Positions 47,574-56,467 of a DNA stretch of 64,000 bases are shown here, piece after piece. Position numbers and translations under genes: made by a program. The number at the start of each line of letters is the position of its first letter. Positions within the stretch are counted from its first letter, which is position 1. Below the pieces are notes generated by a model. The model made no database searches, was not told where the DNA came from, and was given only the letters and a program-made list of their open reading frames with translations. The stretch comes from Lachnospiraceae bacterium. Lineage in GTDB: Bacteria > Bacillota > Clostridia > Lachnospirales > Lachnospiraceae. The stretch spans positions 186,001 to 250,000 of the forward strand of contig JAQVCT010000002.1 in the NCBI GenBank assembly GCA_028689655.1, read 5' to 3'.

Positions 47574-48488
47574 TTATTTTGATATTGAATATTTTTTAAT
47601 GATTTGTGAAGTGATATGAAAAAGTTCCTCTCTGACAGACTTTGGTTCAAGTACCGTAACCTTGTCCCGGCACGACAACATCCATGCAATCAATTCTTCC
47701 TGATCCGTATACTCATGCTCAAACAGTAACGTTCCATCATCCTGTATTTGAAAGGAATCCGATCCAAATTCTTCGATCAAATGCCATTTCATAGACGCAT
47801 CAAAGACAGCTTTCAGTTTTATTTCTCCTGGAAATATTCTCTCAGTGGAAAGATCCGGCATCGCCACCTCACGTTTTGCCACATCCATCTGAGTCTGAAT
47901 AATCTTGTCCATACGATTCAACTTGAACATGCGAAAATCTTCCCTAAGTCTGCAATAGCCCCAGACATACCAGCTGCTCCATTTGAATATTAAAAAATAT
48001 GGCTCAATTTCTCTGCTACTGTCTCCCTTTGGCGCATAATAATTGAAACAGATTACCTTTCGCTCTTCAATAGCATTTTGAATCGCTTCAATCTTCGGTG
48101 CCAAAGCATCCTTATACCAGGATGAAAGATCAATGAGTATGGATTCACTGCCATTTACATACTCAGATGAACCAGCCTTGATTTTCTCCATAAGCTGACC
48201 ATAGTAGCGACTGCCGCTTACACTATCCAAGCTACGTAACCCAGCCATTATCATCTGCATATCCCTGGATGTCAGAATTGTTCTGTCCATCCGGTAGCCA
48301 TCCATAATGCGGATGCCACCACCCACCCCCTGCAAAGTACTGATGGGAATGCCAGCTTTACACAGATCTTCTATGTCTCTGTTGATGGTTCTTCTGGACA
48401 CCTCAAACTTCTCTGCCAGTTCAGGTGCTGTAACTTTTTCCTCCTGCAATAACACAGAAAGAATTCCGATAAGCCTGTCTATCTTCAC
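47574..48488 (-). CDS. YafY-type regulator with WYL domain
   Basis: 304 residues. An N-terminal DeoR-type helix-turn-helix (KIDRLIGILSVLLQ, VTAPELAEKFEVSRRTINRDIEDL) and a WYL ligand-sensing domain (VICFNYYAPKGDSSREIEPYFLIFKWSSWYVWGYCRLREDFRMFKLNRM, abridged). The start is probably GTG at 48488, because YafY proteins begin MKIDRL; an in-frame ATG at 48524 adds 12 residues, but a -10 like GATAAT (48513-48508) would then lie inside the gene. It heads the small group that includes the small protein, the TIGR04076-like gene and TfoX. Confidence 0.87.
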   Translation of the reverse strand: MKIDRLIGILSVLLQEEKVTAPELAEKFEVSRRTINRDIEDLCKAGIPISTLQGVGGGIRIMDGYRMDRTILTSRDMQMIMAGLRSLDSVSGSRYYGQLMEKIKAGSSEYVNGSESILIDLSSWYKDALAPKIEAIQNAIEERKVICFNYYAPKGDSSREIEPYFLIFKWSSWYVWGYCRLREDFRMFKLNRMDKIIQTQMDVAKREVAMPDLSTERIFPGEIKLKAVFDASMKWHLIEEFGSDSFQIQDDGTLLFEHEYTDQEELIAWMLSCRDKVTVLEPKSVREELFHITSQIIKKYSISK

Positions 48489-48575
48489 GATTTTTCTCAC
48501 TTCCTCTATTATCATATCACCCAAAACATGTCAACTATATGTCATGTTTATTTTGACACATTTTCGCCAAATAGG

Positions 48576-48648: not shown

Positions 48649-49170
48649 TTATTCTGTTTCATTATCCTTCACATAAACTGCTCCACCCTGGATCTCTTTC
48701 CATACCGTTGGCTCATTCTTATAGACCTGTGCCATCCAGTGATATCTTCCTGCATGTTTCGTTCCATGGGACGCAGAATGCCAGGTCTCCCTATGTAACA
48801 CAAATATGTATCCAGGACGTATTCTGACAGCCACAGTGTCTTCTGCTCTTGGTGCTCCCTTGCATGCCTTTGCTATCAGAAGACAAATAGGCTGCTCGAT
48901 GGGTATCTGTGCTTCCTGGGTGTGGGAATGTTTCTCCATCTCCACTGTCAGAAATGGCTGTCCTTCACTATAGGTATATCCCAGTGTTCCCAATGTGTCC
49001 AAGACAGGAATGGAGGTATCTACATCCTCCCATCCATTTCCAGATGAGCGATTGGTATTTCCCGTATCTTTACCTTCACCGCTCATATTATACAGTATGC
49101 CATATTCAGAATAATCTATTTCCGTTATGTCTACTACTTCCTTTACCATATATTTCTCTTCAGACTGCAT
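48649..49170 (-). CDS. Ureidoglycolate-lyase-like cupin protein
   Basis: 173 residues. The core resembles AllA: a central MEKHSHTQEAQIPIEQPICLLIAK segment and a C-terminal GYIFVLHRETWHSASHG segment with the His-x-Thr-Trp-His pattern. AllA acts on ureidoglycolate in purine (allantoin) breakdown, but no other allantoin gene is here, so this may be an isomerase or lyase for another ring-opened sugar or acid. GAGGGGGAATTGC precedes the ATG at 49170. It is the last gene of the ECF operon, 13 bp after the BtpA-like gene. Confidence 0.7.
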   Translation of the reverse strand: MQSEEKYMVKEVVDITEIDYSEYGILYNMSGEGKDTGNTNRSSGNGWEDVDTSIPVLDTLGTLGYTYSEGQPFLTVEMEKHSHTQEAQIPIEQPICLLIAKACKGAPRAEDTVAVRIRPGYIFVLHRETWHSASHGTKHAGRYHWMAQVYKNEPTVWKEIQGGAVYVKDNETE

Positions 49171-49183
49171 AAGCAATTCCCCC

Positions 49184-49921
49184 TCATCTGCATTTTCTGA
49201 CCGCATCCATGAACACTTTCACATGTTCCTCGTCAACGTCCCCTTTGTCTTTGTAGGTATCCTTGAAATAGCTTCCTACGATAGCCGCATCTGCATATGT
49301 AAATTCTTCTGCACATGTCTCCGGCAACATGCCTGCAGCTGCTACCAATGGGAACTCTGATCCCACGATGTCTCGAAATTCCTTAATCTTCGAAACCGGT
49401 GTCGGCATACCTGTGCCCTCTCCGGTAACAGCAATGGCATCACAACGTTCCATTCCTATTCGGAGATCCTCTTCCAGTGACCGACCAGATTTATAGGGTT
49501 GATATTTGAATCGAACTCCACCTATTACTGCTCCGCTATAGATACTTCGAGTTTCCTCAATAAATTTACCAAATTTTTCATCATCTGCCAGTTCCAGATG
49601 CCCCGCTACGGAATCTATCTGAATAAATGCCGCTCCATACTTTGTTCCAATTCTCATATTTTCAGAATCATTGTTCAATATATTGCAGCCATATATAAAG
49701 TCAACCTGCTCTTTTTGAAATTTATAGAGCACACGCTCTGCATTTTCCGCTGATCCAAAATAGTTTTCCACAATAACTGCGTTCACACCATTATCAATCA
49801 TTTTTTTGGATTCTTCATATGCACGCTTTATGACATCCTCTGTTGTTTCTCCTTTTAGATGCAGCATTCCTAAAACAGGTTTTTTGGTAGAAAAAATTGA
49901 TAAAAAGCGATTTGTTTTCAT
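49184..49921 (-). CDS. BtpA/SgcQ family protein (TIM-barrel, unknown reaction)
   Basis: 245 residues. Conserved elements are PVLGMLHLKGETTED, VNAVIVENYFGSAEN, ENMRIGTKYGAAFIQID, DAIAVTGEGTGMPTP and AAGMLPETCAEEFTYADAAIVGSYFK (abridged). The BtpA/SgcQ family includes a plant/cyanobacterial photosystem I biogenesis factor and E. coli SgcQ from a sugar PTS operon. In bacteria members sit beside sugar kinases and transporters; the reaction is not known. It is the fifth gene of the ECF operon. Confidence 0.85.
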   Translation of the reverse strand: MKTNRFLSIFSTKKPVLGMLHLKGETTEDVIKRAYEESKKMIDNGVNAVIVENYFGSAENAERVLYKFQKEQVDFIYGCNILNNDSENMRIGTKYGAAFIQIDSVAGHLELADDEKFGKFIEETRSIYSGAVIGGVRFKYQPYKSGRSLEEDLRIGMERCDAIAVTGEGTGMPTPVSKIKEFRDIVGSEFPLVAAAGMLPETCAEEFTYADAAIVGSYFKDTYKDKGDVDEEHVKVFMDAVRKCR

Positions 49922-49956: not shown

Positions 49957-50745
49957 TTATAATTTATTTACCAGTGTTTCTATTTTCATGATGTTTCCTA
50001 ATCCAAGTCTCGTAGAAAGTTCACATATCTGTGGCTTTTTTATCTTTGCTTCACTGAGAATGCTTTCCTCTGCAAATATTTCCGCAGGAGTTCCATCTGC
50101 AATGATATGTCCATGGGCCATAACTACCACACGTTTAAAATTATCAGCTACAAATTCCATATCATGCGTTATCGTAATTACCGACTTTCCATCTTGTTCC
50201 ATATAATGAAGAAGCTTGGACAGACATTCTACTCCAGCCACATCCTGTCCGGCAGTTGGTTCATCCAGAATTAAATATGGATTCCTGGCCGTTAATACAG
50301 CCGCAATGGATACGAATTTCTTAGTAGAATATGGAATCTCATATGGATTAATATCCAGATATTTTTCTATATCACACAATTTAGCTGCCCACTCTGCGCG
50401 GCTCTGGATCTCTTTCTCATCCAGTTTGTTATATCTTGACCAAAACTCCACTTCATCTCTTACCGTGTTCTTAAAAATCTGGTCATCCGGATTCTGAAAT
50501 ACATAGCCTACCATACCAGAAATCTGTGCGGTCGATTTATTCCGTGTATTGATACCATTAATAATCACCTCTCCTTCCGTAGGTTTATGTAATCCATTCA
50601 TGAGTTTAACCGCAGTTGTCTTGCCCGCACCATTTTGTCCAACAATTGCAATTCGTTCACCCTCATGAATCACCAGATTCAGATCTTCATTTGCCAACGT
50701 TCCATCAGGATATCGAAAATGAACGTGTTGTAATTCTATACTCAT
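49957..50745 (-). CDS. ECF transporter ATPase with degenerate signature motif (EcfA')
   Basis: 262 residues. It has Walker A GQNGAGKTT, Q-loop VFQNPDDQIF, Walker B LILDEPT and switch His in ITITHDME. The ABC signature, usually LSGGQ, here reads YSTKK (within EIPYSTKKFVSIAAVL), so this subunit gives the other ATPase's site a degenerate signature. Its ATG overlaps the stop of the first ATPase by 4 bases (ATGA), so translation is coupled. It pairs with EcfA (50742-51599) under EcfT. Confidence 0.9.
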   Translation of the reverse strand: MSIELQHVHFRYPDGTLANEDLNLVIHEGERIAIVGQNGAGKTTAVKLMNGLHKPTEGEVIINGINTRNKSTAQISGMVGYVFQNPDDQIFKNTVRDEVEFWSRYNKLDEKEIQSRAEWAAKLCDIEKYLDINPYEIPYSTKKFVSIAAVLTARNPYLILDEPTAGQDVAGVECLSKLLHYMEQDGKSVITITHDMEFVADNFKRVVVMAHGHIIADGTPAEIFAEESILSEAKIKKPQICELSTRLGLGNIMKIETLVNKL

Positions 50746-51599
50746 AATTGTTCACCTCTCATCCTTTCTCTGACACATACCTCAGCCTCATCAATAGTGA
50801 TAGGAAGTTTTCCAAGGGATTTACCAGCTCTTTCCATCTCATGTCCAAACAAAACTGTCTGCGGTACTGCTACTTTTTTATTCACAAGATCATAGTCTGA
50901 CAAAACTTCTCTGGCAGGTCCGCTTTTAATGATTTTGCCATCTTTCAATACAATTATTTCATCTGCATACTTTGCCATTAACTCTATTTTATGTTCTACC
51001 AGAATAACTGTTTTTTTCTGCTCCTTAAGAGAACGGATAATCTTGAATACACTCTCTGTTCCATCAGGGTCCAGCTGTGAAGTCGGTTCATCTATTACAT
51101 ATATATCCGTATCCATGGCAAGAATTGACGCAAATGCCACTCTTTGTCGCTGTCCACCTGACAATTCATTGGGATTTTTTTCAATTAAATCATAAATTCC
51201 TATGCGTTTTGTGATTTCTTCCGCTTTTTGTATCATTTGCTCTTTATCGATACCCAGATTTTCCAATCCTATGGCAATCTCTTCAAATACGGTATCGCGG
51301 ATACCACTTATCTGTGTAAAGGGATTTTGAAAAATATATCCTACTTTTGTACACAGTTTCTCCGGTTCCCATTCATCAACAGGTTTGCCCTGCACTTCCA
51401 CCGTGCCTTCCAGATCTCCCAGATAAAAGCTGGGTATTAATCCCTTCATCAAATTACAAATGGTTGATTTACCACTTCCATTTGGCCCTATAATTCCGTA
51501 GAACTTTCCCTCTTCAAAATCAAACGAAACGCCATCCAGTGCATAATGATCTGTAAGAGGATATTTATAACGAATATTTTTCAATGATATACTATTCAT
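50742..51599 (-). CDS. ECF transporter ATPase (EcfA)
   Basis: 285 residues. All ABC motifs are intact: Walker A GPNGSGKST, Q-loop FQNPFTQI, signature LSGGQRQRV, Walker B YVIDEPT and switch His in VEHKIE. It energises an energy-coupling factor importer together with the second ATPase. GGAGG precedes the ATG at 51599, which overlaps the EcfT stop (ATGA); a longer start at 51653 lies within ecfT and is not favoured. Confidence 0.92.
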   Translation of the reverse strand: MNSISLKNIRYKYPLTDHYALDGVSFDFEEGKFYGIIGPNGSGKSTICNLMKGLIPSFYLGDLEGTVEVQGKPVDEWEPEKLCTKVGYIFQNPFTQISGIRDTVFEEIAIGLENLGIDKEQMIQKAEEITKRIGIYDLIEKNPNELSGGQRQRVAFASILAMDTDIYVIDEPTSQLDPDGTESVFKIIRSLKEQKKTVILVEHKIELMAKYADEIIVLKDGKIIKSGPAREVLSDYDLVNKKVAVPQTVLFGHEMERAGKSLGKLPITIDEAEVCVRERMRGEQL

Positions 51600-52393
51600 G
51601 GCAGAAACCTCCATACAACGCTGATGATGACCACGAGATCCAGAAAAACACAAAAGACTTTTTCCAATGCAGGTGTTTTTCTAAGTTCATACATATGTGT
51701 CGGCTTTCTATTTGCCGAAAAAGCCCGCGTCTCCATGGCAACTGTTTTTTCTTCTGTACCTGCTATAGCACCCAGAAACAGTGGAAATAATATTGGTACA
51801 AATGCTTTTGCTCTCGTCTTCAAATTACCGCTGGTCTCAACACCACGTGCACTTTGAGATTCCATAATAGTGTTTGCCGACTTTCCCAAATCAATAATAG
51901 ACTGCATGGATGCCAGCATTATATAGGATGCAGCCCGTGGTGCACCCAGCCTTTCCACCGAATACATAATATCCTTCATAGGGGTCACCATATAAAACGA
52001 CATGATAGAACCACATATTTCATTAATAAGCAGTGCCATACTGAGGCCATAAAAAAAACCTTCTTTCGTGATTCCAATAATGCCCCATTCCCAGTACAGA
52101 GTCTCCCCAGGACGAAAACATGTATTTAGTCCAATCAAGAAAAAGAAAAACAAAAATGCAACGAAACTGTAAAGTTTAACAAATCTCTTGAAATTTTCTT
52201 TTCCGGATAACGCATTTATCACATAGCAAATAATAATTACTGCTAATCTGGTCCAATAATGCCCCAGTAAGGCAGCCCCAAGGAATATGGCAAATGCACA
52301 ATTTAATTTTGTAAAAGGATTTAAATCCAGAATAAAATTTCCATGTAACTTAGCATTACGAAACGAATTAATAAATTTTTCTTTACTATTCAT
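51596..52393 (-). CDS. ECF transporter transmembrane component (EcfT)
   Basis: 265 residues. It has 4-5 membrane helices and the conserved cytosolic Ala-Arg motifs SQSARGVET and AETRAFSANRK (abridged), which link EcfT to the two ATPases. An N-terminal helix and NPFTKLNCAFAIFLG are typical. AAAAGGTGAGG precedes the ATG at 52393; an in-frame GTG lies three codons earlier. It overlaps the first ATPase start by 4 bases. Confidence 0.9.
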   Translation of the reverse strand: MNSKEKFINSFRNAKLHGNFILDLNPFTKLNCAFAIFLGAALLGHYWTRLAVIIICYVINALSGKENFKRFVKLYSFVAFLFFFFLIGLNTCFRPGETLYWEWGIIGITKEGFFYGLSMALLINEICGSIMSFYMVTPMKDIMYSVERLGAPRAASYIMLASMQSIIDLGKSANTIMESQSARGVETSGNLKTRAKAFVPILFPLFLGAIAGTEEKTVAMETRAFSANRKPTHMYELRKTPALEKVFCVFLDLVVIISVVWRFLP

Positions 52394-52461
52394 ATGCCTC
52401 ACCTTTTAGTAAAAGCTTGTCGGATATTCTGTTATCTGACAAGCTTGTTACACTTTTCCAA

Positions 52462-53073
52462 TTATTCTCCGTTTTCTGTTCTGTTCATTCCATGTATGTA
52501 TTCATTGCCATAGGGCAGTTTAAGCAAGAAGCGATTCGGAACTGCTTTTACGATAAGAAAAGCAATAATGGCTGACGGAATCTTATCTATAATATCAGAA
52601 AAGCATTCCGATATCGTATTTGCTGTGAATAATCCCAAATGAAAAGTCTTAACAATCGCTCCTGTGATAATTCCTGTGGGGCTTGCTGTATATCCACCGT
52701 AGACTGCCACCGTAACTGCAGATCCCGCAACACCACAAATCACGCCTATGATAATTCCGTAAATCACTGACTTGGGTAATTTCTTAAAAAATCCCCATTT
52801 TGCGAAGAGACCTGCAGTGATACCCACCGCCAGGTAATTGGCCATATAAAACCAGTTAGATGGCGAAGTAATACTTAATAGTGCCCCTGTTGCAAGGGCG
52901 GCAATAATGCTGTAAACCGGACCGCACAATGCACCAACTACCATCGTGCCTACTGCATCAAAGTACACTGGGAGTCTTAATAATGTAACGATCTGACCCA
53001 ATACAAAATTAACTGCAATACCTAAAGGAATTAAATAGAAACCCATTTTCGTGTTTACTTTTCCACTTGCCAT
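52462..53073 (-). CDS. ECF transporter substrate-binding component (S component)
   Basis: 203 residues with six predicted helices. The opening GFYLIPLGIAVNFVLGQIV, LPVYFDAVGTMVVGALCGPVY and NWFYMANYLAVGITAGLFAKW resemble the CD3073-type S components of Clostridioides, whose substrate is not settled in my knowledge. It gives the transporter its specificity. AGGAGGGT precedes the ATG. It is first in the operon, transcribed from the shared divergent promoter at 53126-53159. The vitamin-specific S components (RibU, ThiT, BioY, FolT) are not matched. Confidence 0.85.
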   Translation of the reverse strand: MASGKVNTKMGFYLIPLGIAVNFVLGQIVTLLRLPVYFDAVGTMVVGALCGPVYSIIAALATGALLSITSPSNWFYMANYLAVGITAGLFAKWGFFKKLPKSVIYGIIIGVICGVAGSAVTVAVYGGYTASPTGIITGAIVKTFHLGLFTANTISECFSDIIDKIPSAIIAFLIVKAVPNRFLLKLPYGNEYIHGMNRTENGE

Positions 53074-53125
53074 TTTTATACCCTCCTATAATTTGATTTT
53101 GATAAATTATTTGTTCCTTCTGTTA

Positions 53126-53159
53126 ATGACATTATATGATGTCTTGTGTATAATGTCAA
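53126..53159. promoter_or_regulatory. Face-to-face overlapping divergent promoters in a 10-bp palindrome
   Basis: TGACATTATA (53127-53136) and TATAATGTCA (53149-53158) are a perfect inverted repeat. Plus strand: -35 ATGACA (53126-53131), 17 bp, -10 TATAAT (53149-53154), for the kinase gene. Minus strand: -35 TTGACA (53159-53154), 17 bp, -10 TATAAT (53136-53131), for the ECF operon. Each -10 overlaps the other promoter's -35, so the two cannot be occupied together. It is a natural operator for the GntR-type regulator encoded downstream. Confidence 0.85.
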
Positions 53160-53238
53160 TTATTTTTACTTATTTCTTTCATTTTTAGTTGAATTTACCA
53201 ATACTTTGTGCTATGCTTCTGATAAAAGGAGGGATAGT

Positions 53239-54186
53239 ATGAATGAATATACAATATTTCTTGGCGATGTAGCACTAGATGAATATTATGCTGTTAAGAA
53301 GTGGCCCGGAAGAGCTGACAAAGTGGGCACTGAAATGTTAGAGAGTCAAATGGGCGGCATGATAGCCAATGCTGCCAGTGTATATGCCAGCTACGGAAGT
53401 GATACCAGATTCTCCGGTATTCTCTGTCCCAGTGACATAAAATTAAGTAATTCCCTGGAAGAGATTGGCATTGATACATCTTTAGTCATTTACGACAGCT
53501 CTTTGGTTAATTCGAAATGTATGATATTTCTTTCAGAAGGTGAACATACCGTATTCATCATCAACACCAAGTTAAAAACCATGCCTATTACAGAATCCAT
53601 GCAGGATAAATATTGCAGAGCCTCCACCATTTACACAGGTTTTTGGGCAATGCAGTATCTCCGTCTCGGGAATATGGGGCCTATTGACATCATAAAACAA
53701 TGGCATCAGCATAATGTACAGATCATGGTAGACTCTGACGTGGACAAGATCAGTGAAGAAGATAAGCTCTTATTACCATATGTACATACATTATTTATGA
53801 ACGAGGTGGGATTCGATAATCAAAAAGAGGGGCGCAGCGATGAAGAAACCGTTCAATATCTTCTCCATTCCGGTCCCAAAATACTCATCGTCACAGTTGC
53901 CGAAAAAGGCTGCTATGTATATACCAGAAATGTCCGTTTCCAAATTGACGGAGTACCCAATACTGTGGTAGACGTTACTGGTGCAGGTGATACTTTCTGC
54001 AGTTCCTTCACCTTTTTGTATAATCGCTCCAAAGATATTCAATTATCAGCAAAATTTGCTGTCTTTGCCTCTTCCCGAGCAGTTGGACATATGGGTGCCA
54101 GAGGCGGTGCCGTTGGAAGCGACCCTGTTCTGGCATATATGGAAAAACATGGCGAAGATACCTCTGAATACAGAAAATATCTATAA
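53239..54186 (+). CDS. PfkB/ribokinase-family carbohydrate kinase
   Basis: 315 residues. The N-terminal domain shows GDVALDEYY and MGGMIANAAS; the C-terminal nucleotide/catalytic loop is VDVTGAGDTFCSSF with the catalytic Asp of GAGD. Ribokinase-family members phosphorylate sugars, nucleosides and similar alcohols. AAAGGAGGG precedes the ATG at 53239; a start at 53146 would overlap the divergent promoter. It is divergent from the ECF operon and probably phosphorylates the imported substrate. The residues that fix specificity cannot be read from sequence. Confidence 0.88.
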   Translation: MNEYTIFLGDVALDEYYAVKKWPGRADKVGTEMLESQMGGMIANAASVYASYGSDTRFSGILCPSDIKLSNSLEEIGIDTSLVIYDSSLVNSKCMIFLSEGEHTVFIINTKLKTMPITESMQDKYCRASTIYTGFWAMQYLRLGNMGPIDIIKQWHQHNVQIMVDSDVDKISEEDKLLLPYVHTLFMNEVGFDNQKEGRSDEETVQYLLHSGPKILIVTVAEKGCYVYTRNVRFQIDGVPNTVVDVTGAGDTFCSSFTFLYNRSKDIQLSAKFAVFASSRAVGHMGARGGAVGSDPVLAYMEKHGEDTSEYRKYL

Positions 54187-54301
54187 TTTTGCGTATTTGA
54201 TAATACCCTATGATTCTTTACAGATCAAAAGGAATCATATATTATAGATATAGGAAATATATATTCTAATTCACAATTTTGTATTCAACAGGAGTATGAC
54301 T

Positions 54302-55039
54302 ATGGAATCATTGGAAACAAATGATGTTACACCACTATATATACAATTAGCTGAAAAGATCCGAACTTTAATTAAAGATGGAACCTGGTCTCAAGGCGAG
54401 CAGATTCTGCCCGAATCAGCTCTTTGCAGAACTTATCAAGTCAGCAGAATCACAGTACGTAAAGCAATTGATCTTCTCGTGGATGAAAAAGTACTGCAGC
54501 GCAAACAGGGTAAGGGAACGTTCGTAACATACCCGGATTTTTTTGAAAAATCCTGTGTCCGTGACCACAGTTTTACTGCCTCACTTATTGGCAGGCATAT
54601 CGCTTTTCACACAACAGTTATTCGTCAATCCCTGGAAACAATAGATCGTTCTCTGATAACTCGTTTCAGCATAAAAAATAAATCTGAACTATATGGATGC
54701 ATCGTACGTATCCGCTCTCTTGCAGGAGAACCCGCTGTGTATGAAACAGATTATCTTCCAGAACGCTTTCATCAACTTCTTGACTTGAATTTGAACAACC
54801 AGTCTCTCTTTGGCCTGCTTCATGAAAAAATGGGGGTAGAACCCGTAAATTTTTATGATGATTTTCACATTGTATCAGCGTCACCCTATGTGGCAGAACT
54901 GTTACATGTAGATGTCGGTCATCCTTTGCTGAGTGTTGCGCAAACTGTACTTGATGCTAATCTGGAAGTTATCTATTATAACGAACAACTTATTAAAACT
55001 GAAACTTACACTTACTCAGTTCGTTCCTATCAAGATTGA
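54302..55039 (+). CDS. GntR-family (HutC/UTRA) transcriptional regulator
   Basis: 245 residues. An N-terminal winged helix-turn-helix (PLYIQLAEKIRTLIK, LCRTYQVSRITVRKAIDLLV, QRKQGKGTFV) and a UTRA sensor domain (about 95-240: YGCIVRIRSLAGEPAVYETDYL, DVGHPLLSVAQTVLDANLEVIYYNEQLI, abridged). UTRA proteins bind sugars, nucleotides or amino-acid derivatives. CAGGAG precedes the ATG at 54302. It lies between the kinase and MATE genes and is the natural candidate to bind the palindrome at 53127-53158. Confidence 0.9.
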   Translation: MESLETNDVTPLYIQLAEKIRTLIKDGTWSQGEQILPESALCRTYQVSRITVRKAIDLLVDEKVLQRKQGKGTFVTYPDFFEKSCVRDHSFTASLIGRHIAFHTTVIRQSLETIDRSLITRFSIKNKSELYGCIVRIRSLAGEPAVYETDYLPERFHQLLDLNLNNQSLFGLLHEKMGVEPVNFYDDFHIVSASPYVAELLHVDVGHPLLSVAQTVLDANLEVIYYNEQLIKTETYTYSVRSYQD

Positions 55040-55105: not shown

Positions 55106-56467
55106 ATGCATTTTGTCAAAGATAAAAATTTTTATATAACCTGTTTTAAAATTGGCATTCCCATTATACTACAGGGCCTGATATCTCAGGCTACTACTAC
55201 TGTTGACAGTCTGATGCTGGGCAATGTTGATGGTACCGGCGTGTTTCTGTCCGCTGCTTCTCTGGCTAATCAGCCATTCCGTCTGATGGGTATGTTCTGT
55301 TTTGGTCTGGCAGGCGGGGCCTCTGTCTTATGCAGTCAATACTGGGGAAAAAAAGATTTAAGACCGATTCGCACTATCATGTCAATGGTTTTAAAGATTT
55401 CTTTGATCGTTTCTTTCCTGTTCTCTGTAGTTACATTAGCTATGCCCGAAAAGATCATGTCTCTATATACACCAACAGATCGTATTATTGTTGCCGGTGC
55501 AAGCTATCTTAGAATCGTTGCTTTTGATTATATCTTTTTTGCATTCAGTTCCACGCTAATCTGTATGGCTAGAAGCGTGGAGATTGTCAATATCTCTCTA
55601 ATATGTACACTTTCCGCCTTAGTGACAAACCTCTCTCTCAACTGGATTCTTATTTTTGGGCATTTGGGTTTTGCACCTATGGGGATACGTGGTGCTGCTA
55701 TTGCCACATTGATCTCAAGACTGTTGGAATTTCTGCTGTCAACCCTATATATATTTTGTTTTGATCACAAATTGTCCTTGAGATTTTACCATCTGAAAAG
55801 TATTTCGAAACCTCTGTTATCTGACTTGTTAAAATACGGTACCCCTGTGCTTGCCAATGAAGTAATGTTTTCTCTGGCAACAAATATACAGGCCTCCATC
55901 ATAGGACACATCACCTACATATCAGGTGATCCTGTCGCTGCATATACAGTCTCCACTATCCTGGAGGAGCTGGCAACCGCCTCCGTATATGGAGTCTCCA
56001 CTGCTGCCTGCGTTCTCGTGGGCATGTCCATCGGAAATAAACAGTTCAAAGAAGCCCGGGAAAGGACAAACACTTTACTTATTCTTAGTGTAGCTGTGGG
56101 TGCTGCAACTGCTGGTATCATTTTAGCTTTAAAGCCTTTCGTCCTCCGTCTGTATCAGCTGCCCGTAGAAACTTTATGGCTTGCTGACCAGATGATTACT
56201 GTAACTGCCTTTATTGTATTTTTCCTTGCCATCTCTTACACCTGTATCTTAGGTGTGCTCCGTGGTGCAGGCGACACAAGATTTTGTCTGATTACAGAGA
56301 TTTCTCTTCTATGGATCGTCGCTCTTCCATGCGCTTTACTTGCTACTCGACTTCAATTTCCTATTCCTGTTGTATTAATCTGTATGCGTCTGGATGATCC
56401 TTTAAAAACAATTTTCTGTTTTCTTCGTATCAGAGGCAATCGCTGGATGAAGCCTGTTACCAGATAA
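55106..56467 (+). CDS. MATE family efflux transporter
   Basis: 453 residues with 12 helices. MATE landmarks are GIPIILQGLISQATTTVDSLMLGNVD, LAGGASVLCSQYWGKKDLRPI, APMGIRGAAIATLISR and VLRGAGDTRF (abridged). It exports cationic compounds using a sodium or proton gradient. AAAGGAG precedes the ATG. Its last 66 bases overlap, tail to tail, the coding region of the sigma-54 activator on the other strand. The gene lies directly behind the GntR terminator, so it may be expressed separately. Confidence 0.9.
   Translation: MHFVKDKNFYITCFKIGIPIILQGLISQATTTVDSLMLGNVDGTGVFLSAASLANQPFRLMGMFCFGLAGGASVLCSQYWGKKDLRPIRTIMSMVLKISLIVSFLFSVVTLAMPEKIMSLYTPTDRIIVAGASYLRIVAFDYIFFAFSSTLICMARSVEIVNISLICTLSALVTNLSLNWILIFGHLGFAPMGIRGAAIATLISRLLEFLLSTLYIFCFDHKLSLRFYHLKSISKPLLSDLLKYGTPVLANEVMFSLATNIQASIIGHITYISGDPVAAYTVSTILEELATASVYGVSTAACVLVGMSIGNKQFKEARERTNTLLILSVAVGAATAGIILALKPFVLRLYQLPVETLWLADQMITVTAFIVFFLAISYTCILGVLRGAGDTRFCLITEISLLWIVALPCALLATRLQFPIPVVLICMRLDDPLKTIFCFLRIRGNRWMKPVTR

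Follow-up and report, generated by a model that had tools for sequence, protein, structure and literature searches.

Gene content around the promoter pair

In the window, a 64,000-nucleotide stretch of a Lachnospiraceae genome (contig JAQVCT010000002.1, positions 186,001 to 250,000), a gap of 165 bp separates a minus-strand ECF transporter operon from a PfkB kinase gene on the plus strand, and the promoter pair described here sits in this gap. The first gene of the minus-strand operon encodes a CD3073-like ECF transporter S component (52462–53073, minus strand; match below the equivalog cut-off) and carries an AGGAGGG ribosome site. The same operon continues with the genes for the ECF T component and two ECF ATPases (49957–52402, minus strand), and its distal genes (48649–49921, minus strand) encode a BtpA/SgcQ-family protein and a cupin-like protein, the latter named from a weak ureidoglycolate lyase match. 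On the other side, the PfkB/ribokinase-type kinase gene (53239–54186, plus strand) is preceded by an AGGAGGG ribosome site before ATG 53239; a GTG start at 53146, placed mechanically in the open reading frame list, was rejected in favour of this ATG. The second gene on the plus side (54296–55039, plus strand) encodes a GntR-type regulator with a UTRA domain, related to DasR and YvoA; a separate promoter-like site, TTTACA-17-TATTAT, precedes this gene at 54217–54245. A WYL-domain protein is encoded at 47574–48524. Judging from this neighbourhood, the transporter and the kinase would serve one pathway. Between 47000 and 57000, no riboswitch or other known RNA was found. Further along the window, at 56402–56467, the tail ends of a MATE-like transporter reading frame and of a gene for a PrpR-type sigma-54 activator share 66 bp.

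Two interlocked sigma-A-type promoters

Direct sequence reading and a promoter scan revealed two divergent, interlocked promoter-like sites in 53126–53159. The sigma-A-type promoter on the kinase side (53126–53154, plus strand) consists of ATGACA at 53126–53131, a 17-bp spacer, and TATAAT at 53149–53154 (11/12), and that of the ECF transporter operon (53131–53159, minus strand) of TTGACA at 53159–53154, a 17-bp spacer, and TATAAT at 53136–53131 (12/12). The two sites were the top two promoter-like matches in 52000–54500, and the scan detected no further promoter-like site in the gap. These results bear out the sequence-only reading, which had described a perfect 10-bp inverted repeat with TATAAT in both directions, 17-bp spacings, and -35 boxes of ATGACA and TTGACA. 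Its further statement that each -10 box overlaps the opposite -35 box holds for the contact itself but not for its extent, as opposite-strand hexamers have exactly one base in common each, at 53131 and 53154, and the boxes otherwise abut. The two -10 boxes (53131–53136 and 53149–53154) are separate, with 12 bp between them. Based on the usual 7-bp distance, transcription is predicted to start at about 53161–53162 on the plus strand for the kinase and at about 53124 on the minus strand for the ECF operon, placing the starts about 37 bp apart with predicted leaders of about 78 bases (kinase) and 51 bases (S component). In addition, an A-rich tract (53160–53182, read on the minus strand) lies directly upstream of the minus-strand -35 box, where it may act like an UP element.

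The inverted repeat TGACATTATA-N12-TATAATGTCA (53127–53158) has perfect 10-bp arms at 53127–53136 and 53149–53158, separated by a gap of 12 bp. The arms coincide with the promoter hexamers, and the core is asymmetric (0/6 symmetric pairs), so that the symmetry is confined to the hexamers. A sigma-A promoter combined with its own mirror image in this register reads TTGACATTATA-N12-TATAATGTCAA, and the two promoters therefore predict the repeat. With the arms accounted for by hexamers and no symmetry in the core, the repeat is thus no independent evidence of an operator or repressor site.

The expectation by chance was assessed with dinucleotide-preserving shuffles of the 165-bp gap (25% GC, n = 20,000). 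Promoters of at least 11/12 on both strands appeared in 2 of the 20,000 shuffles, overlapping in one, and a summed score of at least 23 in none, whereas a perfect 10-bp inverted repeat with a gap of up to 30 bp appeared in 159 (0.8%). The promoter pair is thus far beyond chance, and the repeat by itself only moderately so. In a 464-kb sample of the same genome, read on both strands, four perfect and 27 one-off promoters were present, and this site alone had interlocked promoters of at least 11/12 on both strands. Moreover, a search of the 3.4-Mb assembly that allowed up to three mismatches found no second copy of the palindrome.

Recurrence of the layout in related genomes

Among 295 related genomes, 24 carried the interlocked layout with 17-bp spacing on both strands and at most two mismatches, at 25 sites in total including the site in the window. 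When the arms were placed 3 bp further apart, corresponding to a 20-bp promoter spacing, only three sites were found (binomial P = 1.4e-5), and it is therefore the promoter spacing that recurs, not the arms alone. A scramble control, in which one promoter was kept and the other scrambled, yielded 21 sites over both strands, that is, with twice the chances, corresponding to a modest enrichment of the layout of about 2.4-fold (P = 0.003).

With crude gene calls, 14 of the 23 other layout sites lay between divergent genes, compared with 6 of 18 control sites, a difference that was not significant (P = 0.075). The remaining 9 of these 23 sites, subject to the same crude gene calling, would suit the view that a single direction is in use and that the second promoter merely reflects how similar mirrored boxes are, and the divergent partner RNAs of bidirectional promoters are indeed often non-coding (PMC10268837). 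At the present locus, however, the promoters are flanked on both sides by coding genes with strong ribosome sites, 51 and 78 bases away, and neither gene has an alternative promoter-like site in the gap, making use of one direction only very improbable.

Several of the related sites neighbour regulator genes, namely tetR (L049, L052, and L064), Cro/C1-type (L051 and L058), and araC (L054) genes. In L049 and L052, which belong to two genera, the layout is kept between a DsbA-like gene and tetR, with the TetR proteins 66% identical. The gap of these two loci (1480–1560 in each) resembles the present one in having the TTGACATTATA-N12-TATAATGTCAA layout between divergent genes, but it carries GAAC-GTTC-type repeats in and beside the core, none of which was seen at 53126–53159. 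These repeats are likely TetR operators, separate from the promoter arms, and the dsbA-like/tetR gap is likely a TetR autoregulation unit. At L064, an almost complete 34-bp palindrome, TTGACATTATATACCGTTCGGTATATAATGTCTG (1501–1534), lies immediately before the tetR gene.

The inverted repeat and candidate regulators

The sequence-only reading had also pointed to the GntR-type protein as a binder of this region, and we considered whether the element is mainly an operator of this GntR/UTRA protein, with the promoters incidental. A perfect 10-bp repeat with a centre spacing of 22 bp would suit a dimeric regulator, and the plus side has a UTRA-GntR gene in second position. Moreover, GTGTATAA at 53146–53153 is one mismatch from GTNTANAC, which we take to be the operator core of the HutC group. 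However, the exact GTNTANAC is absent from both the kinase/ECF gap and the gntR gap, and the gntR gap holds nothing within one mismatch of it. The symmetry of the repeat ends at the hexamers, which account for its arms; the repeat of 53127–53158 is found neither upstream of gntR, where a regulator of its own promoter would have it, nor elsewhere in the genome; and related genomes have the arms repeatedly at the spacing of promoters but rarely 3 bp wider. The likeness of the two gaps is also at chance level, the best 16-base stretch common to them being equalled in 891 of 2000 shuffles. A shared GntR operator suggested by the resemblance of TATATGATGTCTTGTG (53133–53148) to TATATGATTCCTTTTG upstream of gntR was rejected, as shuffles matched equally well. 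Binding of the GntR protein to the repeat is thus unsupported, and we regard a primary role of the repeat as its operator as improbable. The gntR gap itself contains an imperfect inverted repeat, TATGATTCTTT / AAGGAATCATA (54209–54239), which overlaps the gntR promoter-like site; this repeat has no second copy in the genome and is weak by the shuffle test (21 of 300).

A regulator may nonetheless act at the promoter pair. The candidates are the GntR/UTRA protein and, as a second one, the WYL-domain protein. The earlier suggestion that a bound repressor would close both promoters is reasonable as a possibility, since one repressor could do so.

Comparison with known overlapping promoters

The layout belongs to an already known kind of overlapping divergent promoter, represented by Pc/Pr of the Bacillus plasmid pLS20, and is here unusually strong on both sides. 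Pc and Pr of pLS20 have coincident boxes, the -10 of each at the -35 of the other, and polymerase occupies one promoter at a time (PMC4207663). The present pair shares with it the reciprocal placement of -10 and -35 boxes at a spacing of about 17 bp, the divergent coding genes on both sides, and a geometry in which only one polymerase would fit. It differs in three respects, as the boxes here are adjacent with one base in common rather than coincident, both promoters are near consensus whereas one of the pLS20 promoters is weak and activator-dependent, and neither adjacent gene encodes a regulator whereas one of the pLS20 genes does.

Similarly to the bidirectional promoters described by Warman and Grainger (PMC12825309, PMC10268837), the site consists of pseudo-symmetric DNA that polymerase could enter either way, and like many of them it lies between divergent genes. 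In those promoters, however, the -10 element is shared, as in the definition of PMC12825309, and the distance between starts is mostly 18 bp and also 10 or 23 bp, whereas 53126–53159 has separate -10 boxes and predicted starts about 37 bp apart. No paper on bidirectional promoters in Clostridium was found in a literature search. The recurrence in relatives suggests that surveys published so far, focused on a shared -10, would miss a class defined by this start-to-start distance. We tentatively raise the possibility, which we hold with less than even confidence, that fully interlocked symmetric sigma-A pairs whose starts are separated by about 37 bp form a distinct, selected bidirectional class in this bacterial order, beyond the 10-, 18-, and 23-bp classes, and serve as a control point for divergent operons.

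Probable joint control of transporter and kinase genes

We consider it probable that the element works as a compact sigma-A promoter in both directions and forms one control point for the transporter and kinase arms of one pathway. Two near-consensus promoters on opposite strands, with their -35 and -10 boxes alternating around a 12-bp core, would direct leftward output to the ECF transporter operon and rightward output to the kinase. Polymerase would bind in one orientation at a time, as had been proposed from the sequence and as is supported by the geometry and by the steric exclusion described for comparable promoters (PMC12825309, PMC4207663). By binding within these few bases, a regulator could open or shut both directions jointly. 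With both promoters near consensus, the two directions could plausibly share polymerase, and in the derepressed state they would do so rather than switch each other off, with the minus side probably favoured (12/12 and the A-rich upstream tract).

Uptake and kinase genes of one pathway are normally co-induced. The alternative is a toggle operated by polymerase only, in which the strong promoters compete and the transporter and kinase are expressed inversely, as the sequence-only reading had claimed. Exclusion in binding is, however, not equal to inverse steady-state output. Five bidirectional promoters of E. coli displayed no competition at basal activity; it arose only once one direction was strongly raised, and was strong when one -35 was improved (PMC12825309), indicating that competition needs strong firing. 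This published set, with its low basal activity, did not include a near-consensus case on both strands, and a natural pair near consensus on both strands, such as the present one, is the case where polymerase competition should be strongest. A toggle is in line with this condition and with the use of overlapping promoters as a switch in pLS20, but that switch requires unequal strengths and a regulator acting differently on each promoter (PMC4207663), and the bidirectional promoters at basal activity speak against it. Inverse coupling is thus unsupported, and a toggle appears unlikely.

Joint control, which the gene content suggests, is favoured because inverse expression of uptake and kinase genes is not the expected logic and because relatives of the kinase occur in loci of one orientation. 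In genomes G458 and G015, the kinase relatives have cupin, UTRA-GntR, and ABC transporter genes as neighbours, all in one orientation, an arrangement that would fit joint rather than opposite expression. The orthologous gap was not found among relatives, and the element therefore has no phylogenetic footprint. The genus mates lack the kinase (best matches of 25–34% identity, partial or weak), S-component relatives of up to 40% identity had no divergent kinase, and a scan of species-level contigs gave one distant match. Kinase relatives at 30–32% identity were found in ABC-transporter loci. In L093 and L094 (14 kb each), kinase, cupin, and UTRA-GntR relatives occur together with ABC-transporter genes, which suggests that the same pathway may be combined there with a different uptake system.
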